A stretch of DNA of 43,019 nucleotides from a virus. Both the position numbers and the translations under genes were made by a program. Shown here piece after piece: positions 1 to 39,147 of the stretch; position 1 is the first letter of the stretch; each line of letters begins with the position of its first letter. The stretch is taken from the IMG/VR virus record IMGVR_UViG_3300042914_002314, positions 1 through 43,019 of that record; one strand, given 5' to 3'. Under the pieces are notes generated by a model. That model made no database searches. It saw only the letters and a list, made by a program, of their open reading frames with translations, and was not told where the DNA came from.

Positions 1-1194
1 GTCAACTATTCCGTTCCCGTCAATATCCCATGGTCCTGGTGTCCCACTACCCCAATTTGCTAAAAGCACACCCAAATCATTGCTGTCAACTATTCCGTCA
101 CCATTAATATCTCCTGTAATAGAAGATCCCCCTTGTTGAACAAAATTGTTATTTGAGGGAGTACCCCGTCCCTGTGAAATATCCATATTTGTATATTGTT
201 CCGGACTCAAAGAAACTCTAGTGCTCAAACCTCTTTGTGTTTTTGGTCGCATAGTTGGAGGCATTCTGTTAGGCCCCTCAACATCTCCTTGGGAAACACC
301 TCTATTTTTATTAGAGGCCATTACCTTTGCTTTAGCATTGACAATGTTTCCGGGTGTTGGAGATTGTATTGCTGGAGAAAATTTAGCGGTTGAAGGACTT
401 ATTTCTGGTGAATACGGAGTTTTTGGATTCAATCTTGGCGGGGTTTGCTGTGGTGAAGGTATACCTTGCAATATCATTGCTAGGTCATCACCATCAATAA
501 CTCCATTTCCATCTGCATCATAAAGTGACGTTCCATTTATTGAAGTGTTGTTCCAACCAGGAGCATTTCTTGGAACACCACTTATTTGAGATGTGGTTTG
601 AGATGGACTTGCTAAATTTACTTGTGATACATTAGGAGAAAATTTATTTTTGAATTGCTTTGTTCCTGTTGAAGACGGGATGTTGGGTGGTCCTAATTGG
701 GGTGTTTGATTTTTTTTTTCACCAACTGGTACACCTGCCCCAGCATCAAACATTCTTCCTACTTTACCACTTGCGAGACCTGGTTGATCCAATGCTTTAG
801 CGGCTCTACCTGCTTTTTGACCACCACCAAAAGTTTCAGTCTCTGGTGTTCCAGGTAATGCAGTGCTAGCCATGGTAGTTGGTGATGACTGTCCTCTATT
901 AAGCATATTTGCCAAGAACAATCCAAGATCATCTCCATCAACTACACCGTCTCGGTTCAAATCAAATTGAGGGTTTGAAGAACCCCATGCTTGAAGCAAA
1001 GCATTTAAATCATTAGAGTTGTTATTTTGATTTGTTGTGGTCCCTGTTCCAACCCCAGCACCTGGTCCAGCACCCTGCTCTATAGTTCCGGATGCCAAAT
1101 CTTCAGATAAAAAATTTACATATTTTTCTAAGTGATTTAATTTTTCTTGTAATTGTTCTGATAAGTTCTTGTAGTAATTTGTTAGGTAGTTCAT
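1..1194 (-). CDS. Probable virion protein with dockerin-type calcium-binding repeats (partial, C-terminus beyond left edge)
   Basis: The frame is open from an ATG at 1194 to base 1 with no stop, giving 398 residues of a longer protein. Residues 1-35 look like a short coiled coil. Dockerin-type loops follow the pattern D-x-(N/D)-x-(D/N)-G-x-(V/I)-(D)-x-x-D. They lie at residues 78-89 (DLNRDGVVDGDD), 226-237 (DADGNGVIDGDD) and 362-373 (DINGDGIVDSND), and a fourth begins at 390 and is cut by the edge. Each is followed or preceded by a helix of the LGLFLAN / LGVLLANWG type, as in dockerin half-repeats. Linkers are rich in Pro, Ser, Thr and Asn. In known families such loops bind calcium and dock to cohesin domains or stabilise extracellular proteins. 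A virion role is inferred from the neighbouring large low-complexity genes. No cohesin partner was recognised in the window. Confidence 0.8.
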   Translation of the reverse strand, partial: MNYLTNYYKNLSEQLQEKLNHLEKYVNFLSEDLASGTIEQGAGPGAGVGTGTTTNQNNNSNDLNALLQAWGSSNPQFDLNRDGVVDGDDLGLFLANMLNRGQSSPTTMASTALPGTPETETFGGGQKAGRAAKALDQPGLASGKVGRMFDAGAGVPVGEKKNQTPQLGPPNIPSSTGTKQFKNKFSPNVSQVNLASPSQTTSQISGVPRNAPGWNNTSINGTSLYDADGNGVIDGDDLAMILQGIPSPQQTPPRLNPKTPYSPEISPSTAKFSPAIQSPTPGNIVNAKAKVMASNKNRGVSQGDVEGPNRMPPTMRPKTQRGLSTRVSLSPEQYTNMDISQGRGTPSNNNFVQQGGSSITGDINGDGIVDSNDLGVLLANWGSGTPGPWDIDGNGIVD

Positions 1195-1196
1195 TT

Positions 1197-1964
1197 TTAT
1201 CTTCCTAGTTTAATTTTTCCTGATTGATCTGGGTTTTGAGACCACATATTTCCCATTCTTTCCTTTTGTCCTTGTGAAAGTTGTCTCACATAACCTGTAA
1301 CATCTTTTCCTCTTGATTTACTTGGTTTCCCTAAAATGTTGGTGACGGTATCTTCAACTGCTTTTTGTGCTCTTTTTCCAACAACAAATCTTTGATATGT
1401 GTCTGGAACACCTTGGGAATAGGGATCCGAAACATTTCCATTAAATAAATGGTTTTGTGACAATTTTTCTTTAATTCTTTGTGTGCTGTGAGCAGAAACA
1501 GCATTATTTAATCTTTTCCAATCTAACGCAACACTTTGCTCTGGATCATCTTTTTCTGCAACGCCACCATCTACAGGGCTATACATATTCATAAATTCTT
1601 TGGCTCTTGCAAATGTAGCCATATCTACACCTAAGCCCATCATAGTTGCAAGATTATTCGAATAATAAGGTTGATATTTTACAACTCTTGGATCTGCATC
1701 TGGTAAAATTTTTCCCTTTGCTGCTGCAAGAACATTTGGGTTCATTACGATTGCAGAGGGGTTTGCTGCAGCACCTACACCAAAACCAGCAAAACCACCT
1801 ATGTTTGGTTGTAGAACACTGTAATCTGCGCTATAATCTGCTTTTCCAAAACTAGGATCTGGTGCTTTTTCAAGCAATTGCTTTTTGTTTTTAATTTCTT
1901 TTTGTAAATCTAATACTTCTTTTTCTAAATCTTCAGAAAGGAGTTGAAAGTTTGATTTGTTCAT
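1197..1964 (-). CDS. Unrecognised protein, probably virion-associated
   Basis: This encodes 255 residues of no family I recognise. The first 35 residues (LSEDLEKEVLDLQKEIKNKK) form a heptad-like coiled coil, similar in style to the N-terminus of the next gene downstream. A Gly/Ala/Asn-rich segment (FAGFGVGAAANPSAIV) follows, and then a mixed alpha-helical, Lys-rich C-terminus. The start overlaps the stop of the upstream small gene as ATGA, so translation is probably coupled; no clear Shine-Dalgarno is seen. The stop lies two bases before the start of the dockerin-repeat gene, so these genes form one minus-strand operon driven from the late box at 2171-2178. Confidence 0.75.
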   Translation of the reverse strand: MNKSNFQLLSEDLEKEVLDLQKEIKNKKQLLEKAPDPSFGKADYSADYSVLQPNIGGFAGFGVGAAANPSAIVMNPNVLAAAKGKILPDADPRVVKYQPYYSNNLATMMGLGVDMATFARAKEFMNMYSPVDGGVAEKDDPEQSVALDWKRLNNAVSAHSTQRIKEKLSQNHLFNGNVSDPYSQGVPDTYQRFVVGKRAQKAVEDTVTNILGKPSKSRGKDVTGYVRQLSQGQKERMGNMWSQNPDQSGKIKLGR

Positions 1965-3535: not shown

Positions 3536-4357
3536 TTATCCGCCTAAAATTCTTCCCATTCTACGCAAATCATCTTCTGTTGGACGTGGACCTTGGGCAG
3601 GATTACGAGACATAATTTCTCTTGCAGCAGCCTCAAGTCCTAAATTTGATTTAAAATCTCTTACTGCTTGTTTTCCTGCTTCTCTTCCGGCTTGATTTGC
3701 GGATGCTGGAAGTTTTCCTTCTTTTTGTGCTTGGCCTTTGGCACGCAATGCAGCATCAACAGCCATTTGATTTTGAAGATCTTGTAATCTTCTGGTTTTT
3801 CTTTGAGGAATTATACCTCTGTTAATAGCATCTTCAGTTCCTGTTCTTGTTATTTCATTTGGAGACATATTAGGTGGAAATCTAGCAGGCGGAACTGGTG
3901 CAGATGGTGAAGGGGTCATACCAACATTGGGGAATGTTGGTGGACCACTCATTCCTAAATTTTCATAGTCTGTTGTAGTATCTCCATCCCCGGCTTCCCA
4001 ATCTTGAGCATCAGTTGCAACTTCATTTGCGGTGCCTTGACCATCACCATCAACATCTGAATTATTAGGATTTAAATCTCCCTTTCCTTTAAATCCTGGA
4101 AGATCCAATCCAACTCCTTGAAATCCACGAAGTGCTTCAGCTCCTCTACGATTTTTTGGAAATTCAGCACCTATAGCTTTAAAGAAGTCTAAAACACCTT
4201 TCATACCTTCTTCGGTTGCTTCATTTAAAGTTTGTTGTTGTTCAATTAAAAATTCATGATGCTTGGCATATTGCTCTGCTTCATTCAATAGTTTGGCCTT
4301 CATGGCTGCTGCATTGAGTTCGTGAATCCATGAGTATTTCTTAATTTTCTTGTCCAT
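3536..4357 (-). CDS. Probable virion protein with one EF-hand-like calcium loop
   Basis: This encodes 273 residues from MDKKIKKYSWIHELN. The upstream in-frame ATG at 4378 lies before the late box at 4363-4370 and would not be in a transcript from it, so 4357 is chosen. The N-terminal third is helical and charged. The middle carries DVDGDGQGTANE, which fits the EF-loop pattern D-x-D-x-D-G-x-x-x-x-x-E, although position 8 is Gly rather than the usual Ile/Leu/Val. A Pro-rich linker (PSPSAPVPPARFPP) and a basic helical C-terminus follow. The family is not recognised. It heads the minus-strand operon that continues to 2421. Confidence 0.7.
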   Translation of the reverse strand: MDKKIKKYSWIHELNAAAMKAKLLNEAEQYAKHHEFLIEQQQTLNEATEEGMKGVLDFFKAIGAEFPKNRRGAEALRGFQGVGLDLPGFKGKGDLNPNNSDVDGDGQGTANEVATDAQDWEAGDGDTTTDYENLGMSGPPTFPNVGMTPSPSAPVPPARFPPNMSPNEITRTGTEDAINRGIIPQRKTRRLQDLQNQMAVDAALRAKGQAQKEGKLPASANQAGREAGKQAVRDFKSNLGLEAAAREIMSRNPAQGPRPTEDDLRRMGRILGG

Positions 4358-4362
4358 GAAAA

Positions 4363-4370
4363 TATTTATA
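4363..4370 (-). promoter_or_regulatory. T4-type late promoter box TATAAATA
   Basis: A perfect late box with its last base six bases before the ATG at 4357 (TATAAATA-TTTTC-ATG). Initiation six bases downstream would put the RNA 5' end at or next to the start codon. It is back to back with a sigma70-like promoter for the plus strand. Confidence 0.7.
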
Positions 4371-4371
4371 C

Positions 4372-4399
4372 TTGACATTTGTTTAGTCTGAGTTATTGT
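4372..4399 (+). promoter_or_regulatory. Sigma70-like promoter for the small-gene cluster
   Basis: TTGACA at 4372-4377 is followed after 16 bases by TATTGT at 4394-4399 (four of six matches to TATAAT). Expected initiation is about 4405, at the ATG at 4406, so the first gene would have almost no leader. The -10 match is moderate. Confidence 0.5.
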
Positions 4400-9592: not shown

Positions 9593-11964
9593 TACTTCCA
9601 ATCCTTATCTTGTTTCTCGCCTTTTGAGTGGCCATTGTCTGATCTATTTTCCGATTTATTGCGAACTCGTAAATTATTTATGCCATTAGAACCACCATGT
9701 CTTAAGGCTTTTTTATGATCTATGTCTTTCCCATCACCTTTTTTAACACGGCCCTTTTTTATCATTTGCTCACGCGCTTTAGTTCTTTTGGCACGCTCTT
9801 TTCTTTGTTTTGGTTTGCCATGATAATTTCTATATTCCATGGCATAATTTCTTTTCTTTGCTTCTTGTAATTGTTTTTCTCTTTGATTTAAAACTGCCAT
9901 CAACATTTCTGGAAAGGCAATGGCACGGGAAGAAACTTGATGAAAAATATTTTTTAAAGTGCCATTGTCTTCAGTTAATATCCCAGGTTGTACTAGTGCA
10001 GCAGCTTCAGCATCTGTTAATAACTTTGAATTCAATAATGAAGAAAGAATAAAATTATTTGTAAGAGATTCTGTTAAGAGATAATTTATAAACAAAACTG
10101 CATTTTCATTTACAAATGTTTTTAGTGTATCTGTTTTTTCAACTGGTATTTTTATTGTTTTACCATTGATTCTTACATAATTGTATTGTATAGTGTTTAG
10201 ATCAGATGTTTTAAATCCTGGTATCAAACTTACATTTATATCAAAATCCATATTATTAGCAATATAGTCCATAGCAATTTGAACTGGATTTATATTGTCT
10301 TTTGATACGAATAAAGAATTTAAATCTAACTCTTGTTTTTGTTCTACAACAGTTGCAAATCTTCTAGTTATCTCTGATTGACTATCTTGCCTTTGTTTAA
10401 TATTATCTTTTGATGTGATTGTAGAAGATGATTTAACAGAGACAGATGCTGATTTTGCAATTTCATCAAAATATTCGTCACTCATTGGAAATATTCCATT
10501 TTGTGTAACTAAGTGTGTTGGTGACTCTTCTGGCTTCTTCAACATATCACCACGATAATATGTTTTTAAAATATTTTTCACGAATACATCACTAAACTCA
10601 GAAATTTTATTTTGGGCATTTTTAAATAACGAAGGAGCAGATTTTGTTATCTCTTGTTGATAACCATCTAATGATGCCAATTTATTTACTTTTCCATTTT
10701 CATCAAATAGTTTACCGATTTCTCTTCCTTCACTATCTGTTAGACTTACATTTTCTAACTGAGAAGCCAATTGCGGGTTATTTTGAATGGCTGATATTGC
10801 TTCTTTAGAAAGCAACATAGTTGAAAACTTTGATCCAACCGTAGATATTGTTTGAGCAAACTTAGAAAATTTTGGATCTTTTTCTAAATTTGTGGTGGAC
10901 AAAGCTGTAGCCAAAGAATTTTTAATTAATCCTCTAAAAGACTTACTGCTTTGATCAAATTTATCTGTGGTTAGGGAAAACTCACCACCAGCAGATATAT
11001 TGAATTTATAGTTCCCACATTCCATATCCACGTTACCTTCCGCAAATATGGTCTTTGAACCACTTTCAACGCTTGCAACAAGATTTTGAATGCACGCTTC
11101 ACCAATTTGTGAAAGAATTTTTTTGGCTTGTTCAAAGGCGTTTTTAGTGAAATCTAATGCATTTGGAGCAATTGCTGTATAAGATTCAAGTTCTTGTTCT
11201 CCAGCGCCAGCCTTTATCTTGGCCAAAAATATCAATGCATTCAATACTTGTTGATTATAAGATGCTGTAGATAGTGGATTGATTCCAAACTTATTGGCTA
11301 ATGCCTCAAAGGTCATAGAATCAAAACTACTGTTTGTCGGTGGATTTCTTACCATTTTGAAATACTCTTGACGCATTTCAAATGGAATTTGATTTAATTG
11401 CTCAGGAGTCATCTGAGTCATCAACTCAAAGATATCTTGTTTAGATAATTTCTTTGCTTCTTTTTGCTGAGGTTTTCCCTCAGCCCCCTCGGATTCAGAA
11501 TCTTGTGACTGTGTTACCTTTTTATCTGTTTCTTTTCCAGAAATTTTACCTTTATCGGTTTTCTTGGATTCTTTTTCTCTTACATTTCCAAACAAAAGTT
11601 TTGATGCACCTGTTTGTTCAAACTTTGGATCACCCGTCAATGCACGGGCTTCTTCCATAGTCATACTTTCATTTTTATTAATTTTTTGATGCTTACTCTT
11701 ATCAAATGAATCCTTGAAGATAAGTTGAACTCTTCCAGATGGTGTTTTTACTGCGATTACTTCTTTAATGAGTTGGTCTTTTGACCTACGCTCTCTTGGA
11801 ATTTGTCTAGCACGCTCTTTGCGCTTTCTTTCTGCATCTTTTTGCTTATCGGTGGCAGAAGAAGACTTTATCTTATCCTTTTCCATGGCTTCACCAGTAG
11901 TACGGAAAGAATCGGCTGTAGAACGCTTTTGTTCCAATAAATTTAGTAGATCTTTGAAGTTCAT
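9592..11964 (-). CDS. Large probable virion protein with a C-terminal HNH-like domain
   Basis: This encodes 790 residues from MNFKDLLNLLEQKRSTADSF. Residues 1-190 are very basic and charged (RKRKERARQIPRERRSKDQ), low in complexity and probably disordered. A long helical and mixed body runs to about residue 700. The last 80 residues resemble compact HNH domains found in phage proteins: YRNYHGKPKQRKERAKR, then GDGKDIDHKKALRHGGSNG and INNLRVRNKSENRS. These give the D-H, N and N/H positions, with no zinc-binding Cys pairs. Whether the nuclease is active is unknown. The late box CATAAATA ends six bases before the ATG. A structural or co-packaged role is inferred from the large body and the operon. 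Confidence 0.75.
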   Translation of the reverse strand: MNFKDLLNLLEQKRSTADSFRTTGEAMEKDKIKSSSATDKQKDAERKRKERARQIPRERRSKDQLIKEVIAVKTPSGRVQLIFKDSFDKSKHQKINKNESMTMEEARALTGDPKFEQTGASKLLFGNVREKESKKTDKGKISGKETDKKVTQSQDSESEGAEGKPQQKEAKKLSKQDIFELMTQMTPEQLNQIPFEMRQEYFKMVRNPPTNSSFDSMTFEALANKFGINPLSTASYNQQVLNALIFLAKIKAGAGEQELESYTAIAPNALDFTKNAFEQAKKILSQIGEACIQNLVASVESGSKTIFAEGNVDMECGNYKFNISAGGEFSLTTDKFDQSSKSFRGLIKNSLATALSTTNLEKDPKFSKFAQTISTVGSKFSTMLLSKEAISAIQNNPQLASQLENVSLTDSEGREIGKLFDENGKVNKLASLDGYQQEITKSAPSLFKNAQNKISEFSDVFVKNILKTYYRGDMLKKPEESPTHLVTQNGIFPMSDEYFDEIAKSASVSVKSSSTITSKDNIKQRQDSQSEITRRFATVVEQKQELDLNSLFVSKDNINPVQIAMDYIANNMDFDINVSLIPGFKTSDLNTIQYNYVRINGKTIKIPVEKTDTLKTFVNENAVLFINYLLTESLTNNFILSSLLNSKLLTDAEAAALVQPGILTEDNGTLKNIFHQVSSRAIAFPEMLMAVLNQREKQLQEAKKRNYAMEYRNYHGKPKQRKERAKRTKAREQMIKKGRVKKGDGKDIDHKKALRHGGSNGINNLRVRNKSENRSDNGHSKGEKQDKDWK

Positions 11965-11970
11965 CTAAAT

Positions 11971-11978
11971 TATTTATG
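11971..11978 (-). promoter_or_regulatory. Late promoter box CATAAATA
   Basis: CATAAATA-ATTTAG-ATG at the start of the 790-residue gene: seven of eight matches to TATAAATA, in the short intergenic gap. The six-base gap predicts a leaderless transcript. Confidence 0.55.
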
Positions 11979-11984
11979 ATAATT

Positions 11985-12563
11985 TTAGGTCTCCAAAGGA
12001 TTATACAATTTTAAATTTTTATAACTTTTTGCCTTCCCAGTTGCTACTTTATAAAGATTACTGCTGCACAACCCATTGTCCTTGCAAAATTGAAAAATAT
12101 TATCTATGTAAAATACTTCTTTGGTCACTATATTTTGAAATGTAGCACCGTTATAAGATTTTATCTTTATTTTCTTTTTCTCTTTTTCTTTTATGTTGGA
12201 GCCCACCCCTTCCTTTACGGCTCGTATTTCTACAGCAGTCCAGCCTTTATATGTTTTTCTTTTTCCATTCAATAATTCACAAATTTTTACTGGAGTTAAA
12301 CCATGCTTGTTTCCAAATTCAGTCATGCTTTCAAAAAATACTTTTTCTTGGGTATCTACCCTTTTTAGCCAATACCCATTTTTTTCAGTTACAGGAGATC
12401 TCCATTTCCAAGTTCTACCATCTCTGTAAAAAGATCCACCATGTTTTGAAATAAATTGATCTCTTAAAATTTTTGCCTTTGAATTATCATTCATCATTAA
12501 CCAGATTCTTGAACCGGGTCTGTTAACTTCATCTGTTTCAGTTCTGATGTTATGAATTTCCAT
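11985..12563 (-). CDS. IENR/NUMOD-type DNA-binding protein without a nuclease domain
   Basis: This is 192 residues from MEIHNIRTETDEVNRPGSRI. Two copies of a short helix-turn-helix-like motif, of the kind found in intron-encoded (homing) nucleases, are visible. The first is at residues 73-109 (FESMTEFGNKHGLTPVKICE then LLNGKRKTYKGW) and the second at 148-184 (FQFCKDNGLCSSNLYKVATG then KAKSYKNL). No GIY-YIG, HNH or LAGLIDADG motif is present, so it may be a solitary DNA-binding remnant or a regulator. The start overlaps the upstream exonuclease gene by 14 bases with AAGGAA before the ATG. Its place among structural genes suggests insertion with its neighbour. Confidence 0.65.
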   Translation of the reverse strand: MEIHNIRTETDEVNRPGSRIWLMMNDNSKAKILRDQFISKHGGSFYRDGRTWKWRSPVTEKNGYWLKRVDTQEKVFFESMTEFGNKHGLTPVKICELLNGKRKTYKGWTAVEIRAVKEGVGSNIKEKEKKKIKIKSYNGATFQNIVTKEVFYIDNIFQFCKDNGLCSSNLYKVATGKAKSYKNLKLYNPLET

Positions 12564-28846: not shown

Positions 28847-31800
28847 TCAAATATCACCGCTAACACTAAATATATTAGTTGCAATTTGTATTATTTTTGC
28901 TCTTTCGCCACCAAAACTTGAATCTGTTAATTCTGGATTGTTTCCTGATTTTGATTCTATTGTAGTTCCACTTTCAAAAATTCTTATTCTGGTACCATTA
29001 GATGCTGGCCTTCTTATCATATCACAATTAAATCCGTTAGGTAACCCTGTTGGAAGATATATGAAAACCGTTGCGGTATTTCCCATCAAGAAAATTTTAC
29101 CATTATCAGCAGCAGCCAATGTAAACCCTGCTGTCTTTGTTTCAAATACTGAAGAAGTGGTTGTATATCTGTTTGCTGTAACTAAAGAACTTAATGTAAT
29201 TCCACCAGATGCGCTGATTCCATTTGGAGAATTTATTAAAGAATTTATAGTAGTACTAGTTCCACTTGTGTTTATTATAAAATTTCCACTTGAATCTACG
29301 TCTAATCCAACATTTGCTGCAGTTGAACCAGCCATACCAGCATCTTTGTCATTGAAAACCAAACTTATGTTCTTTCCTGTTTTGCTGTTCACTTCCATTG
29401 CATAAGTGATGCCTACAGCAAAAGATGAGGATGGGGTTCTATTTACTAAAAAATTACCTTCTGTGACACCAGTAGTATCCCCGAAATATAATGCTTTTCT
29501 AGCATTATCTAAAACTAATTGTTGTCCATTAGACTGTTTTGGTACCGAATTATCACCGACCTGAAATGTTGTGGATCTAATAGCAAGAGAAGTTGTTGCA
29601 GTATTTCCAAAAGAAATTGAAGAGTTTGAAATAACCGCTGCTGCAGTTGTTGTATTATTGTCTGAAGCAGCATAAATACTCAGAGATCCTGCAGAATTTT
29701 CAATGTAAGTATTGTTGCCTGATGTGCTCATTCCAAGCCGTATTCCACCAATTCTGCTATTTGCTCCAGTTGTTGCTCTAGCAATTCTCAATCCAGCGCC
29801 ATCCGTACTTGCAATTATGTTTACTGTATTTGTCGTAGAGCTAAAAGTGGAGCCACCAGATGCGCTGATTCCATTTGTAAAACTTTGAAGAGGTCCAAAG
29901 GTATTGGCGTTTCCTGTTGTTACGCCAGTTACTTGTCCTGTAAGTCCATTAAATCTTGTTACTACATCGTTTGTAAGTGCAAGAGTTCCACTTGTTGATG
30001 GGAGTGAAAGCGTGTTTCCTGATCCAAATCCTACTTGTAATAAAGTATTGTAGGATGTTGAAAGCATGCTATTATAACCCAAGAATCTTATACCAGTTTG
30101 ATAATCAACTGATGACTTATTGGCTAAACCTGTATCTATTGTAACTGTGGATGTGGTTGGGGCTATTGTAATGTTTCCACCGCTTGAGCCGATATCAAAT
30201 TCATTTGCATCACCAGAACCAATTCCAAATGAAACTTGATTTCTTATTTTAAAACTTGCCCCTCTAATGCCTTGCTGACTAATATGGGTTCTTGTTCCTG
30301 CTGTGTTTGTAAGAGTTATTCCGGATGCAACACACATACCACCTAAGAAGTTTACAATTCCTGCGAATGTTCCACCAGCAGCAGAAACTCCACCATTTGT
30401 TGAGAGCGTTCCAAATACTCTTGTGGAAGTTGTTGAGGAATTTCCGATGACTGTGGTGTTGGAACCGTCTCCTAAACCATCTACTCCAGAAATTACTATT
30501 TGATTTGTTTCACTATTGGCTGATGCGCGAGACCCATTTCCAATGAAAACGCTATTACTTGCAACAGTAAGAGTATCTGTTCCAGCGCCTCTATATCTAC
30601 CTGCATTTAAACCAACAGCAACATTATTGTCTCCAGTAGTGGTATTTACTAATGCAGTAGTTCCAACAACGGTGTTACTGTTTCCTGAAGTTAAAGCTCC
30701 TCCAGCATAAGAACCAATAGTAACATTTTGACTTCCAGTGCCAGTTAGATTTGAGGCATATCCAATTGAAACATTATCATTTCCACTTACGCAATTTCTC
30801 AAAGCCTGTTGACCGATAGCAATTGAATTTAATCCAGTTTGCATATCTCTTGCAGCAAAAGATCCAATTGCTACAGTGTTAGTTGATGTTGTAATAGATG
30901 TAGCAGCGTTATGTCCAATTGCTGTATTGTCTGTCCCTGTGGTGTTTGCATCCAACGCACCAGAACCAACAGCAGTATTATTGGATTGAGTGTTTAGATA
31001 AAGAGCCCTATAACCAACAGCAGTAATATCAGAAGCAGTTTGACCAGTATAAGCGGCCTGATAACCTACTGCAGTATTTTCGACTCCTTGGCAGTTACCG
31101 TAAAGAGCCTGAGATCCAACAGCAGTGTTGAATGATTGCTGGTTGTAATATAATGTATTATATCCTACTGCAGTTACATCAGAGGCCGTTTTTCCATTAT
31201 AAGATGTATTAGCCCCAATATTTGTATTTTGAGAACCTGTTGTGTTACCAAATGCTGCTTGATAACCTAAAGAGGAATTAAGACTTCCAGTAGAATTTGC
31301 CCAAGAAGAATTAAAACCATAAGCAGAATTATTATTACCTGATTTATTATATACAAGCGATTCTCTACCAAAAGCGCAATTTTGTCCCCCTATTGTGTTT
31401 AACCCTAAAGCATAATTTCCAACAGCAGTATTATAACCACCTGTTGTAGTACTATACATGGCAAGAGCACCAACAGCAACATTTTGTACTGCTGTTGTTG
31501 CGCTTCCTAGTGCAGAAGAACCAACCGCAGTATTACTGGATTGTGTATTTACAGTAAGGGCGCCATGACCGATAGCAGTAATATTTGAGGCTGTTTGTCC
31601 AAGCTGAGCAGCCCGATAACCTACAGCAGTGTTTGAAGTTCCTTGGCAGTTACCGTAAAGAGCCTCTGCCCCAACTGCAGTGTTAAAAGATTGATTATTA
31701 TAATAAAGTGTCCTATAACCAAGAGCAGTTGTGTAGGAGGCTGTGATTCCTGTAAGGGATGCTTGATATCCAACTGCATTATTATAATTTCCAGTAGTGT

Positions 31801-32404
31801 TATTTTGTAATGCAGATCCACCAAATGCCGCATTTAACACACCAGTTGTATTTGATCCAAGTGAACTGTTTCCAAATGCATCATTTCCTATTCCTGTAGT
31901 GTTATCATTTAATGCACCATAACCAACAGCACTATTTGGACCAGCAACGGATAGAGCCAATGCTTGAAACCCAATTGCAACGTTATTTGTTGCTGTACTG
32001 CCAGTTTGTAGTGCTTGATATCCTATTGCAACATTACCAGCACCAGTAGTATTTGCATTTAGTGCACTTTGACCAACTGCAACGTTGGTAGAAATAGATC
32101 CACCACCCTCACCAACTCTGACTCCATTTACAACAATGTCATTTGCAAAAGTTCCACCACTGGAAGAAATCCCGCTAGTAAAACTTTGAAGGGGACCAAA
32201 TGTATTTGCAACACCAGTGGTAACACCAGTAACAGCACCAGTCAATCCATTGAACGAGTGTACACCACCACCAGCAACACCTATAAGAGCACTGCCACCT
32301 GTAATGCCTACATACAATCTGCTATTTGTAATGTCAAATGCAGGTTCTCCAAAGGTAAGTCCACTCGGTATACCCGATCCTCTTTTAAATTTAATACTGG
32401 CCAT
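28847..32404 (-). CDS. Large fibre/adhesin with YadA-head-like repeats
   Basis: This is 1185 residues, probably a trimeric tail fibre for host recognition. The N-terminus MASIKFKRGSG matches that of the 34488 gene and is probably the virion-attachment domain. Residues about 105-640 are many 14-15-residue repeats of the form N-x-A-(V/I)-G-x-x-A-L, like the head of trimeric autotransporter adhesins such as YadA. A module FNGLTG-x-VTGVTTG-x-ANTFG occurs near residue 50 and again near 820. The C-terminus (GKIFLMGNTATVFIYLPTG onwards) looks like a tip domain. No secretion anchor is present, as expected for a phage protein. GGAG precedes the ATG. Confidence 0.85.
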   Translation of the reverse strand: MASIKFKRGSGIPSGLTFGEPAFDITNSRLYVGITGGSALIGVAGGGVHSFNGLTGAVTGVTTGVANTFGPLQSFTSGISSSGGTFANDIVVNGVRVGEGGGSISTNVAVGQSALNANTTGAGNVAIGYQALQTGSTATNNVAIGFQALALSVAGPNSAVGYGALNDNTTGIGNDAFGNSSLGSNTTGVLNAAFGGSALQNNTTGNYNNAVGYQASLTGITASYTTALGYRTLYYNNQSFNTAVGAEALYGNCQGTSNTAVGYRAAQLGQTASNITAIGHGALTVNTQSSNTAVGSSALGSATTAVQNVAVGALAMYSTTTGGYNTAVGNYALGLNTIGGQNCAFGRESLVYNKSGNNNSAYGFNSSWANSTGSLNSSLGYQAAFGNTTGSQNTNIGANTSYNGKTASDVTAVGYNTLYYNQQSFNTAVGSQALYGNCQGVENTAVGYQAAYTGQTASDITAVGYRALYLNTQSNNTAVGSGALDANTTGTDNTAIGHNAATSITTSTNTVAIGSFAARDMQTGLNSIAIGQQALRNCVSGNDNVSIGYASNLTGTGSQNVTIGSYAGGALTSGNSNTVVGTTALVNTTTGDNNVAVGLNAGRYRGAGTDTLTVASNSVFIGNGSRASANSETNQIVISGVDGLGDGSNTTVIGNSSTTSTRVFGTLSTNGGVSAAGGTFAGIVNFLGGMCVASGITLTNTAGTRTHISQQGIRGASFKIRNQVSFGIGSGDANEFDIGSSGGNITIAPTTSTVTIDTGLANKSSVDYQTGIRFLGYNSMLSTSYNTLLQVGFGSGNTLSLPSTSGTLALTNDVVTRFNGLTGQVTGVTTGNANTFGPLQSFTNGISASGGSTFSSTTNTVNIIASTDGAGLRIARATTGANSRIGGIRLGMSTSGNNTYIENSAGSLSIYAASDNNTTTAAAVISNSSISFGNTATTSLAIRSTTFQVGDNSVPKQSNGQQLVLDNARKALYFGDTTGVTEGNFLVNRTPSSSFAVGITYAMEVNSKTGKNISLVFNDKDAGMAGSTAANVGLDVDSSGNFIINTSGTSTTINSLINSPNGISASGGITLSSLVTANRYTTTSSVFETKTAGFTLAAADNGKIFLMGNTATVFIYLPTGLPNGFNCDMIRRPASNGTRIRIFESGTTIESKSGNNPELTDSSFGGERAKIIQIATNIFSVSGDI
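30966..31190. repeat. Direct duplication inside the adhesin gene, copy 1
   Basis: This stretch is closely similar to 31517-31740, including a shared 20-base run CCTTGGCAGTTACCGTAAAG. It encodes four to five YadA-head-like repeats, and the two copies share the unusual ALYGNCQG motif. It indicates duplication by recombination. Confidence 0.65.
31517..31740. repeat. Direct duplication inside the adhesin gene, copy 2
   Basis: Partner of the copy at 30966-31190, offset by about 550 bases in the same orientation. Third positions have diverged more than the protein. Confidence 0.65.
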
Positions 32405-35076: not shown

Positions 35077-37398
35077 TTAAGAACCTGTTATCTCATAAAT
35101 TCCAGTAGTTGGATTACTAACTTGATACCAAGTCCAAGAAATAGAAACATTATATGCGTTTGTTTGTGTAAAAGTTCCTGTAACTGGTGTTACTGTAAGA
35201 TTATTTGCATCTTTCCATGATGTATATGTTCCTGGAGATCCGGGAGAGGTGGGAAGAATTACATAACAATATTCTGGGCTCCCGGATTCAATGAATGTAT
35301 ACTTATATGATCCAAGTCCAGTAAGGCTTGAAGTAAATCTATTGCTAGAACCTGTAGTTAAATCGGAAAGTGATGTCGGTGAAGCCGAAGCACTCTTGCC
35401 CCAATAAATTTTATGACGCCAATCAAAAGATGTATTGCGAGAAACAACAACTCCAGATTGTTGTTGTCCTGTTAAACCAAATACAAGTTGTGTTGGTGTA
35501 GAATAACCATATTGGTTTAAACTAATTGTTGCCGGTGTACTATTGTAGTTTAGTCCAGATTGAATTACAAGAGAATTTGTATTGTCTCTTATCACCAAAG
35601 ATCCAGCAATCCAATTTGCTGCTGGGCCAGTTGGGCCCCAAGTAGCAGTATAAGAACCCGCACCAAAAGTTCTTCCAAGATCGAATGGAGATGTTCCAAG
35701 ATTTATTGAGAATGATGTAAACGATACTGGTTGATAAGGATAAATTAATTGTTCTAAAACTTCTATAGCATTTAACCCTAATGCAAAAGTTATTCCACTA
35801 GCAATTCCATTTGCTGCACCTGGATCTGGATTTGTCCATGTAGATTCTGTCCCAGAAAATGCAGAACCTTGAGTTGTGCCATCCGGGAATGTAATAAATC
35901 CATCTACACCAAGACTAACACCTTTTGGTAAAATTAACTCACTGTTATCTTGATTTAAGAAAAATGCATTATTACTTTCTAAATCTGTGTTGTCTGTGTT
36001 AGAATATTGAACAACACCGGGTTTACTACTTTTTACGCTAATAGTATTGCTGATTACTTTGCTTCCAGCAGTTATTCCATCAGTGATACTGATTCCAGAA
36101 CCAGCAAATACACTTGTTGCTGTATTTGGTGCAATGGTAACACGAACATCTTTTCCTTCTCTAGTTACATTTACATCACCAGCAAATTTAATATCGTTAA
36201 CTGAACGAATTAATCTTTTTCCTTCAAATACGATTCCTACAGCCCCACCACCTGTTGGAATGATGGAAGAAGTCAATTTTGCTATTGCTTCTTGTATGTC
36301 TTTGCTTGCAGTTGTTTTTATTAACTTATTGAATTTGTCTGTCTTGAAAGAAAGAATTCCATTTTCTAGCGTTAGTGGTTCTGAAACAGAAATAATACCG
36401 CTATCTCCTTTTTCTCCTTTTTCTCCTTTTTCACCGGGTATGCCTTGTGGTCCTTGTGATCCTTGTGGTCCTTGTGAGCCCATGATTCCTTGTGGACCTT
36501 GTCTACCCTCTGGTCCCATATCTCCTTGTGGACCGGGTTCTCCTCGTTCACCTTGTATCCCTTGTTCGCCTTTTGGTCCAACCGATCCTTGTATACCCGG
36601 CTCACCTCTTTCCCCTTGTGGTCCAATTTCTCCTTGTGGACCTCGTTCTCCAACATCACCCTTTTCACCTTTTGGTCCCATTGGTCCTCTAGGACCAATT
36701 TTTCCTTCTTTTCCCTCTGCTCCTATTGGTCCAGATGGCCCCTGTTCTCCAACATCTCCTTTTGGTCCAACAGGTCCTTCTGGTCCGATTGGTCCTCTAG
36801 GACCTGGAATTCCTTGTTCTCCCTTTTCTCCTTTTTCTCCACGCAGTCCTTGAGCCCCGATTGCTGGAATGGATTCTTTTATTATAGTTTTTTCTATAAT
36901 TTTAACTTCGGGTTTTATTACTTTTGATTCAGAAATTATTTTAGGTTGTGGTGGGGGAGTTATATCCTCAATCAAATTGTTTATTTGATTTGAGTTTCCA
37001 TATAATTTAATTACTTTATTATTATTTTTTTGAATAAAATAAAGTTCTGTGACACCATGCCCGAGTTGAAATTTTTCATCATATTGGCATGGTTCAATCT
37101 TTTTAAGAACTTGATTCTCAAATAAATTACCAAAAGATCTTTTTACTTTAAAAATTTCACCTTCCATTCCTTCATAAGTTTTTAAAGGAATAAAAAGATC
37201 TTTTATTTTAGTAAAATTTCCTTCAATTAAATATTCTTCACCATCAGAACTTCTTAAAAATAATTGAGTTATACCAGAACCAACTTTTATTTTTTTTGGA
37301 TTTAACGCGGATTCAATTATATGATATTGACAGCCTAAAGGCAGATCTGGGTGTGCCTTTGATAATTTTAAAGTTGTTTTGTTCTTTCCAAAGAACAT
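35077..37398 (-). CDS. Collagen-like fibre protein (mixed Gly-X-Y)
   Basis: This is 773 residues. Residues 1-145 hold two related domains ([20 protein letters not shown] and [20 protein letters not shown]). After a helical linker, residues 181 to about 333 are some 50 uninterrupted Gly-X-Y triplets rich in Pro at X and Lys/Glu ([17 protein letters not shown]), compatible with a charge-stabilised collagen triple helix. The C-terminal 430 residues are beta-rich, with a binding-type domain ([18 protein letters not shown] onwards). Phage collagen-like proteins usually form fibre shafts. It is followed closely by the 191-residue gene and preceded by the GAT-repeat gene. Confidence 0.87.
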
Positions 37399-37401
37399 AG
37401 G

Positions 37402-39147
<1,746 letters not shown>

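Follow-up and report, generated by a model that had tools for sequence, protein, structure and literature searches.

Internal proteins of phage T4 associate with the core through a capsid-targeting sequence (CTS). Those of the T-even phages are highly diverse, the CTS alone being conserved (PMC3012670); they bear an N-terminal packaging signal, by which they are often recognised, and are injected, and three of the T4 proteins inhibit GmrSD restriction enzymes (PMC12373910). In giant phages of the SPN3US/phiKZ type, which have processed ejection proteins, N-terminal propeptides of head proteins are cut C-terminal to glutamate (PMC5694885). The phage lysin LysGH15 has an EF-hand-like calcium-binding site (PMC4022735).

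The locus described here lies at the edge of a whole viral contig of 43,019 bases with linear ends (the window), and encodes a protein in which dockerin-type calcium loops follow an N-terminal leader (Table 1). Its loops resemble those of GC-type (NF041540) and type I (PF00404) dockerins, with a D-x-N-x-D-G-x-V-D-G-x-D loop and then an LGxxLANWG helix. Unlike such dockerins, however, the protein is phage-encoded, is not part of a secreted enzyme, carries a phage leader and has no known cohesin, and its modules are scattered in a low-complexity linker, often as one loop plus a degenerate half. The leader recalls T4 IPI-III and Alt in being a short N-terminal signal on unrelated bodies, in its clustered variable genes and in what looks like an end site of the prohead-protease type; it differs in being about 23-31 residues long and strongly helical, as against 10-20 residues, in its sequence and bodies, and in that packaging is predicted. 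The SPN3US propeptides end in A-x-E and often exceed 100 residues, whereas the clade of the window is T4-like with [LI]xE. LysGH15, like the window protein, is phage-encoded and contains a calcium loop, but it is an endolysin, not a dockerin, and has no leader.

Table 1. Features of the dockerin-loop locus in the window (a slash marks a predicted cut, here and in the text)
Feature	Positions	Strand	Remark
Dockerin-loop ORF, 398 codons	1..1194	-	ATG at 1194; runs off the contig edge without a stop
Candidate capsid-targeting propeptide: N-terminal leader helix, residues 1-31, ending LSE	1102..1194	-	
Predicted prohead-protease cut after E31 (LSE/DL); E31 codon 1102-1104	1101..1104	-	From a motif match alone
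Dockerin unit 1, residues 52-98; its first half (NSNDLNALLQAWG) is degenerate, its second loop full	901..1041	-	
Calcium loop 1, DLNRDGVVDGDD, residues 78-89	928..963	-	
Calcium loop 2, DADGNGVIDGDD, residues 226-237	484..519	-	Within the 87-residue module missing from L001
Calcium loop 3, DINGDGIVDSND, residues 362-373, with LGVLLANWG helix	76..111	-	
Calcium loop 4, DIDGNGIVD, residues 390-398	1..27	-	Cut by the contig edge
Conserved upstream neighbour, similar helical N-terminus ending LLE32	1197..1964	-	Gene order kept in 9 related loci
Cluster gene, leader-like N-terminus (LNE33/A, LNE53/A), one EF-type loop at 4022-4057	3536..4378	-	

Reading of the translations identified a T4-type clamp, clamp loader and polymerase, a UvsX-like recombinase, a helicase and a primase among the window genes. 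Compared with the polymerases of cultured phages, that of the window reaches at most 42% identity, and T4-like cyanophages supply the nearest ones. A scan of viral contigs yielded, besides more distant homologues, a full-length homologue of the dockerin-loop protein (L001:10001-11149, 382 aa, 85% identical where aligned) on a contig of 64.7 kb, where the gene lies in a late gene block, upstream of and near a T4-type neck gene (T4 neck protein, 1.8e-43). These T4-like genes bear out the assignment of the protein to a phage. The fibre region of the window also holds collagen-like proteins (35077-37398 and 37402-39147), one of them with long GAT repeats (GATGATGAT...), and positions 28847-32404 encode a 1185-aa protein with many NTAVGxxAL-type repeats, which resemble the head repeats of trimeric autotransporters.

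Profile searches confirmed the dockerin-type repeats in the window ORF. The window protein (P0001) scored 35.5 bits against NCBIfam NF041540 (dockerin_GC), passing the cut-off of 29, and its best match, residues 52-95, joins a half without a loop (NSNDLNALLQAWG) to a half with an intact one; among the homologues, L002 reached 31.6 bits, L001 fell under the cut-off with 25.1, and more distant proteins failed. Pfam Dockerin_1 (PF00404) gave the truncated window protein 21.4 bits (E = 2.9e-4) over three stretches, the best being residues 361-396, against a gathering cut-off of 22.9 that was passed by L001 (23.7), L003 (25.1), L005 (33.6) and L006 (34.0). Eleven related proteins contain 25 dockerin-type loops, compared with 0.022 expected per shuffle, and the loops are therefore not due to chance. 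None of the 25 departs from D1, G6 and D12, so that the ligand positions 1 and 12 are filled in 25/25; the remaining ligand positions hold N, D or T (position 3), D or N (position 5) and D, N or T (position 9). A sequence search of the PDB reached dockerins only at E 0.36-0.76.

The sequence-only reading had called these repeats dockerins of the LLANWG kind found in environmental bacteria, and this call is upheld by the GC-type model and by the loop-helix pairs predicted below. It had also described at least three complete loops and a cut fourth, with the adjoining helix: the three complete loops and the cut one were found, but a DLGxxLANxx helix follows only loops 1 and 3, loop 2 being followed by DLAMILQG. 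Loops occur in tandem at the C-terminus of L001 and, as far as the edge permits, at window residues 362-398, whereas unit 1 has one loop only; in the homologues the loops are mostly single and widely spaced, unlike the canonical pair. Judging by L001, in which loop 4 reads DFNQDGFVDGTDMGLLFANWG in full, the second half of the loop pair, a glycine-rich linker and the C-terminus QRRRKK lie beyond the contig edge. A K/R-rich tail ends all full-length homologues. The predicted mature form of L001 has an overall pI of 4.9, an acidity that sets it apart from most of its homologues.

AlphaFold2, run on the window protein with ten sequences, predicted a helix at residues 2-34 and loop-helix units at 78-99, 226-242 and 362-380, with helices at 61-72 and 87-99 in dockerin unit 1; confidence was low outside these elements (mean pLDDT 49.9). 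When the L001 pair was modelled alone, two loop-helix units with short bridging strands were obtained, with a core pLDDT of about 70-83. The best Foldseek match in the PDB was a dockerin (2ozn_B), at a non-significant E of 0.43 and a probability of 0.69. The models thus do not lack a paired loop-helix fold, the absence of which would have refuted the dockerin call, and the support that they lend is moderate.

Ten homologues could be aligned (the window protein, L001, L002, L003, L005, L006, L010, L103, L104 and L123; L004 is the same protein as L003). The order YSWIHELN gene, coiled-coil gene, dockerin gene is kept in nine loci besides the window, L123 being the exception, and in six homologues of the upstream neighbour L30, L31 and E32 are invariant. 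Synteny scans from the neighbour gene revealed no loci beyond those already found. Because L001 lacks the 87-residue module around loop 2, and because loop number differs among homologues, modules have evidently been gained and lost. Between the window and L001, unit 1 shows one change in 141 bases (dS = 0), while dS is 0.39 in the leader and the last unit is saturated, a pattern that points to mosaicism or recent conversion; no claim about selection is therefore drawn from dN/dS. In L006, a second dockerin-loop gene (11116-12465; 449 aa, three loops, G-rich linkers) adjoins the first and starts with a diverged leader-like sequence, MNPRLLYLKNLTQVLQEKVVVLENQLNLLHE.

The first 31 or so residues of the window protein (MNYLTNYYKNLSEQLQEKLNHLEKYVNFLSE/D) belong to a leader of about 23-31 residues that starts 146 proteins of uncultured T4-like phages, and the bodies behind it fall into 62 unrelated clusters (by BLAST from residue 41 on). 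Of 60 representative bodies, almost none matched a named family in Pfam or PHROGs. In many cases the leader closes with [LI]xE and then A, S, G or D, of which Ala is the commonest. With one representative per cluster, [LI]xE/[ASGD] was found at residues 19-38 in 28.3 of 62, compared with 5.3 (maximum 10) after shuffling, and in 0 of 62 at residues 39-58; with looser dereplication (84 sequences) the site was present in 63% versus 9%. A helix with many L and E residues is more likely to contain LxE by chance, but shuffling the same residues still gives far fewer sites. All ten dockerin homologues have [LI]xE at the leader end (FLSE/D, NLNE/D, MINE/S, FINE/A, QLNE/A, MINE/A or ILSE/A), and E31 is an invariant alignment column. 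Across the leader set, the position of LxE varies (E23, E27/28 or E31), and the strict form is missing from about half of the body clusters. The genome-wide excess of the N-terminal motif in G004, a related contig with the leader, was modest (19 of 107 proteins versus 10 in each control window), and this test was therefore kept out of the main evidence.

Leader genes commonly stand in tandem. In dozens of viral contigs (e.g., L024, L026, L030, L032 and L038), up to about five genes lying near one another form arrays in which the leader MNYLTNYYKNL is all that is shared, the bodies being unrelated and mostly family-less; such arrays are a source of candidate injected proteins.

The protease expected to act on such a site was sought in the same contigs. 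Of 20 leader contigs, 11 encode both a T4-type prohead protease (PF03420) and a major capsid protein (MCP; PF07068), whereas neither was found in the other nine; G004, one of the 11, carries a dockerin gene as well. PF03420 was not found in the other dockerin contigs tested, and the MCP was also missing where tested; because the window, like its closest relative, is a fragment, the link to protease and MCP rests on relatives. T4 gp21 favours a small residue after [LI]xE. In 11/11 MCPs of related contigs, HL[TIY]E/DM (HLTE/DM, HLIE/DM or HLYE/DM) is found near residue 55, which we take to line up with the T4 gp23 cut, and in most contigs read a short peptide ending LLE/A, LVE/S or LTE/G opens the gene that follows the protease. 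As a motif, the LSE/D of the window protein therefore fits the kind of site that the protease of this clade, judging by these MCPs and peptides, probably cleaves.

A strict EF-type pattern was matched by 4 of 155 genes in G004, 3 of 76 in G001 and 2 of 45 in the window, small numbers obtained with a pattern picked after the dockerin loops had been seen. In each genome these genes belong to a single cluster, and all nine start with a leader-like sequence, which argues for a calcium role specific to the leader-bearing gene cluster.

Taken together, these data favour, with a probability of roughly 0.55, a head-interior protein of an uncultured T4-like myovirus that would be packaged into the prohead and processed at its leader, that has a basic tail, and whose dockerin modules would depend on calcium. 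The loops, the shared leader, the LxE site, the basic tail and the conserved gene order are established at the level of sequence; recruitment, cleavage and head location are what we infer for the window protein from the parallel with T4 internal proteins. The leader looks like a prohead-targeting and processing signal: residues 1-31 would form a helix that brings the precursor to the prohead core as the head assembles, and a gp21-type prohead protease would then cut after LSE31. The mature chain, a flexible linker rich in G, P, Q, N, S and T with one to about four dockerin-type modules and the basic C-terminal tail, would remain in the head with the DNA, and the tail may help. More speculatively, the modules could fold on calcium in vivo and then bind a partner. 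This could be a second head protein or, should the chain leave the head along with the DNA, a target inside the host.

This reading draws on one leader being shared by 62 unrelated body clusters, as in T4 internal proteins, on the enrichment of [LI]xE/[ASGD] at the leader end and its conservation in the dockerin homologues, on the co-occurrence of protease and MCP together with the MCP site, on the confinement of EF-type loops to leader-like cluster genes, and on the K/R-rich tail and the predicted helix followed by loop-helix units. Counted against it are the reliance on relatives for protease and MCP, the varying position of LxE, the absence of the strict form from about half of the clusters, the modest genome-wide excess and the acidic mature form of L001.

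The strongest rival is structural glue in the neck or head, in which the leader helix would anchor the protein to a neck, portal or baseplate component and the calcium loops would stabilise that component, with no proteolysis. A single long N-terminal helix with heptad-like leucines (AlphaFold2) and the late gene block upstream of the neck gene in L001 would suit such a part, and virions are commonly stabilised by calcium; a leader shared by 62 unrelated bodies, however, is hard to square with a fixed structural part, and the invariant E31 with [LI] at -2 would go unexplained, so we regard glue as unlikely. A role outside the virion, in which the leader would be a helical tag that directs the protein to a different assembly site of the infected cell, where the loops would act, would accommodate the many leader-bearing bodies that lack a known family, but fits poorly with LxE/[ASGD] at the leader end and with the gene block beside neck genes; it seems improbable.

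The sequence-only reading had suggested that a virion protein with dockerin modules could dock onto cohesin-like host surface proteins or use calcium to stabilise an appendage. Calcium may indeed stabilise a part of the virion, but a receptor or appendage role is not supported. The modules are of dockerin type, and structural genes lie nearby (the T4 neck gene in L001, the collagen-like fibre genes in the window). Surface docking to cohesins nevertheless has the domain name as its sole positive evidence: no fibre, adhesin or carbohydrate-binding domain was found in the protein, no cohesin was found in 12 viral contigs of relatives, the loops seldom form the canonical pair, and the leader, which dozens of unrelated proteins have in common, ends in what looks like a prohead-protease site. 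Because the leader resembles a head-loading tag, internal cargo is likelier than a surface receptor, which we consider the least probable of the readings weighed here.

Beyond the head-interior reading itself, a broader proposal can be put forward tentatively, as possible rather than probable: the leader, an amphipathic helix of 23-31 residues ending in [LI]xE, would be a new capsid-targeting class that loads a large, quickly changing set of at least 62 unrelated proteins into the heads of an uncultured T4-like clade. A calcium-switched dockerin protein would be one conserved cargo, which may be kept unfolded in the head and fold on calcium at or after ejection. If the leader acts in this way, it offers a sequence handle for packaged, possibly injected proteins of this phage group, comparable to the T4 signal that let many ip genes be recognised. 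Because T4 internal proteins inhibit restriction enzymes, the 62 body clusters would be candidate anti-defence or takeover proteins, and a calcium-dependent docking module would be placed in an unexpected compartment, the phage head.

Dockerin cargo in T4-type internal proteins was not described in the papers searched, nor was a dockerin protein in such a leader-bearing arrangement, and the papers that mention dockerins in phages concern other proteins. The leader consensus gave one spurious match (tblastn, E = 9) in 50,697 phage records, in which searches with the dockerin homologues, or with a GC-type dockerin pair built as a consensus, found none (low-complexity filter on), and neither the leader nor dockerin unit 1 was confirmed in 84,980 prokaryote genomes. 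A phage dockerin in itself is not new, since viral protein sets already hold dockerin-like annotations, such as the BFVD match 'Dockerin type 1 [Myoviridae sp. ctCL221]'. A 190-aa protein with a dockerin-like pair (DLNADGVVDGDDAGLVLAAWG...DLDGSGTVDGGDAGHVLAAWG; L039:4468-5040) was set aside, as it has no leader and lies on an unrelated viral contig. Finally, L001:16267-16989 and L002:14321-15043 encode nucleotidyltransferase-like proteins (NTP_transf_2, sub-threshold) whose starts, MKTFGQFITE/S and MKTFGEFINE/S, resemble a T4-type capsid-targeting sequence, making each a candidate packaged enzyme.
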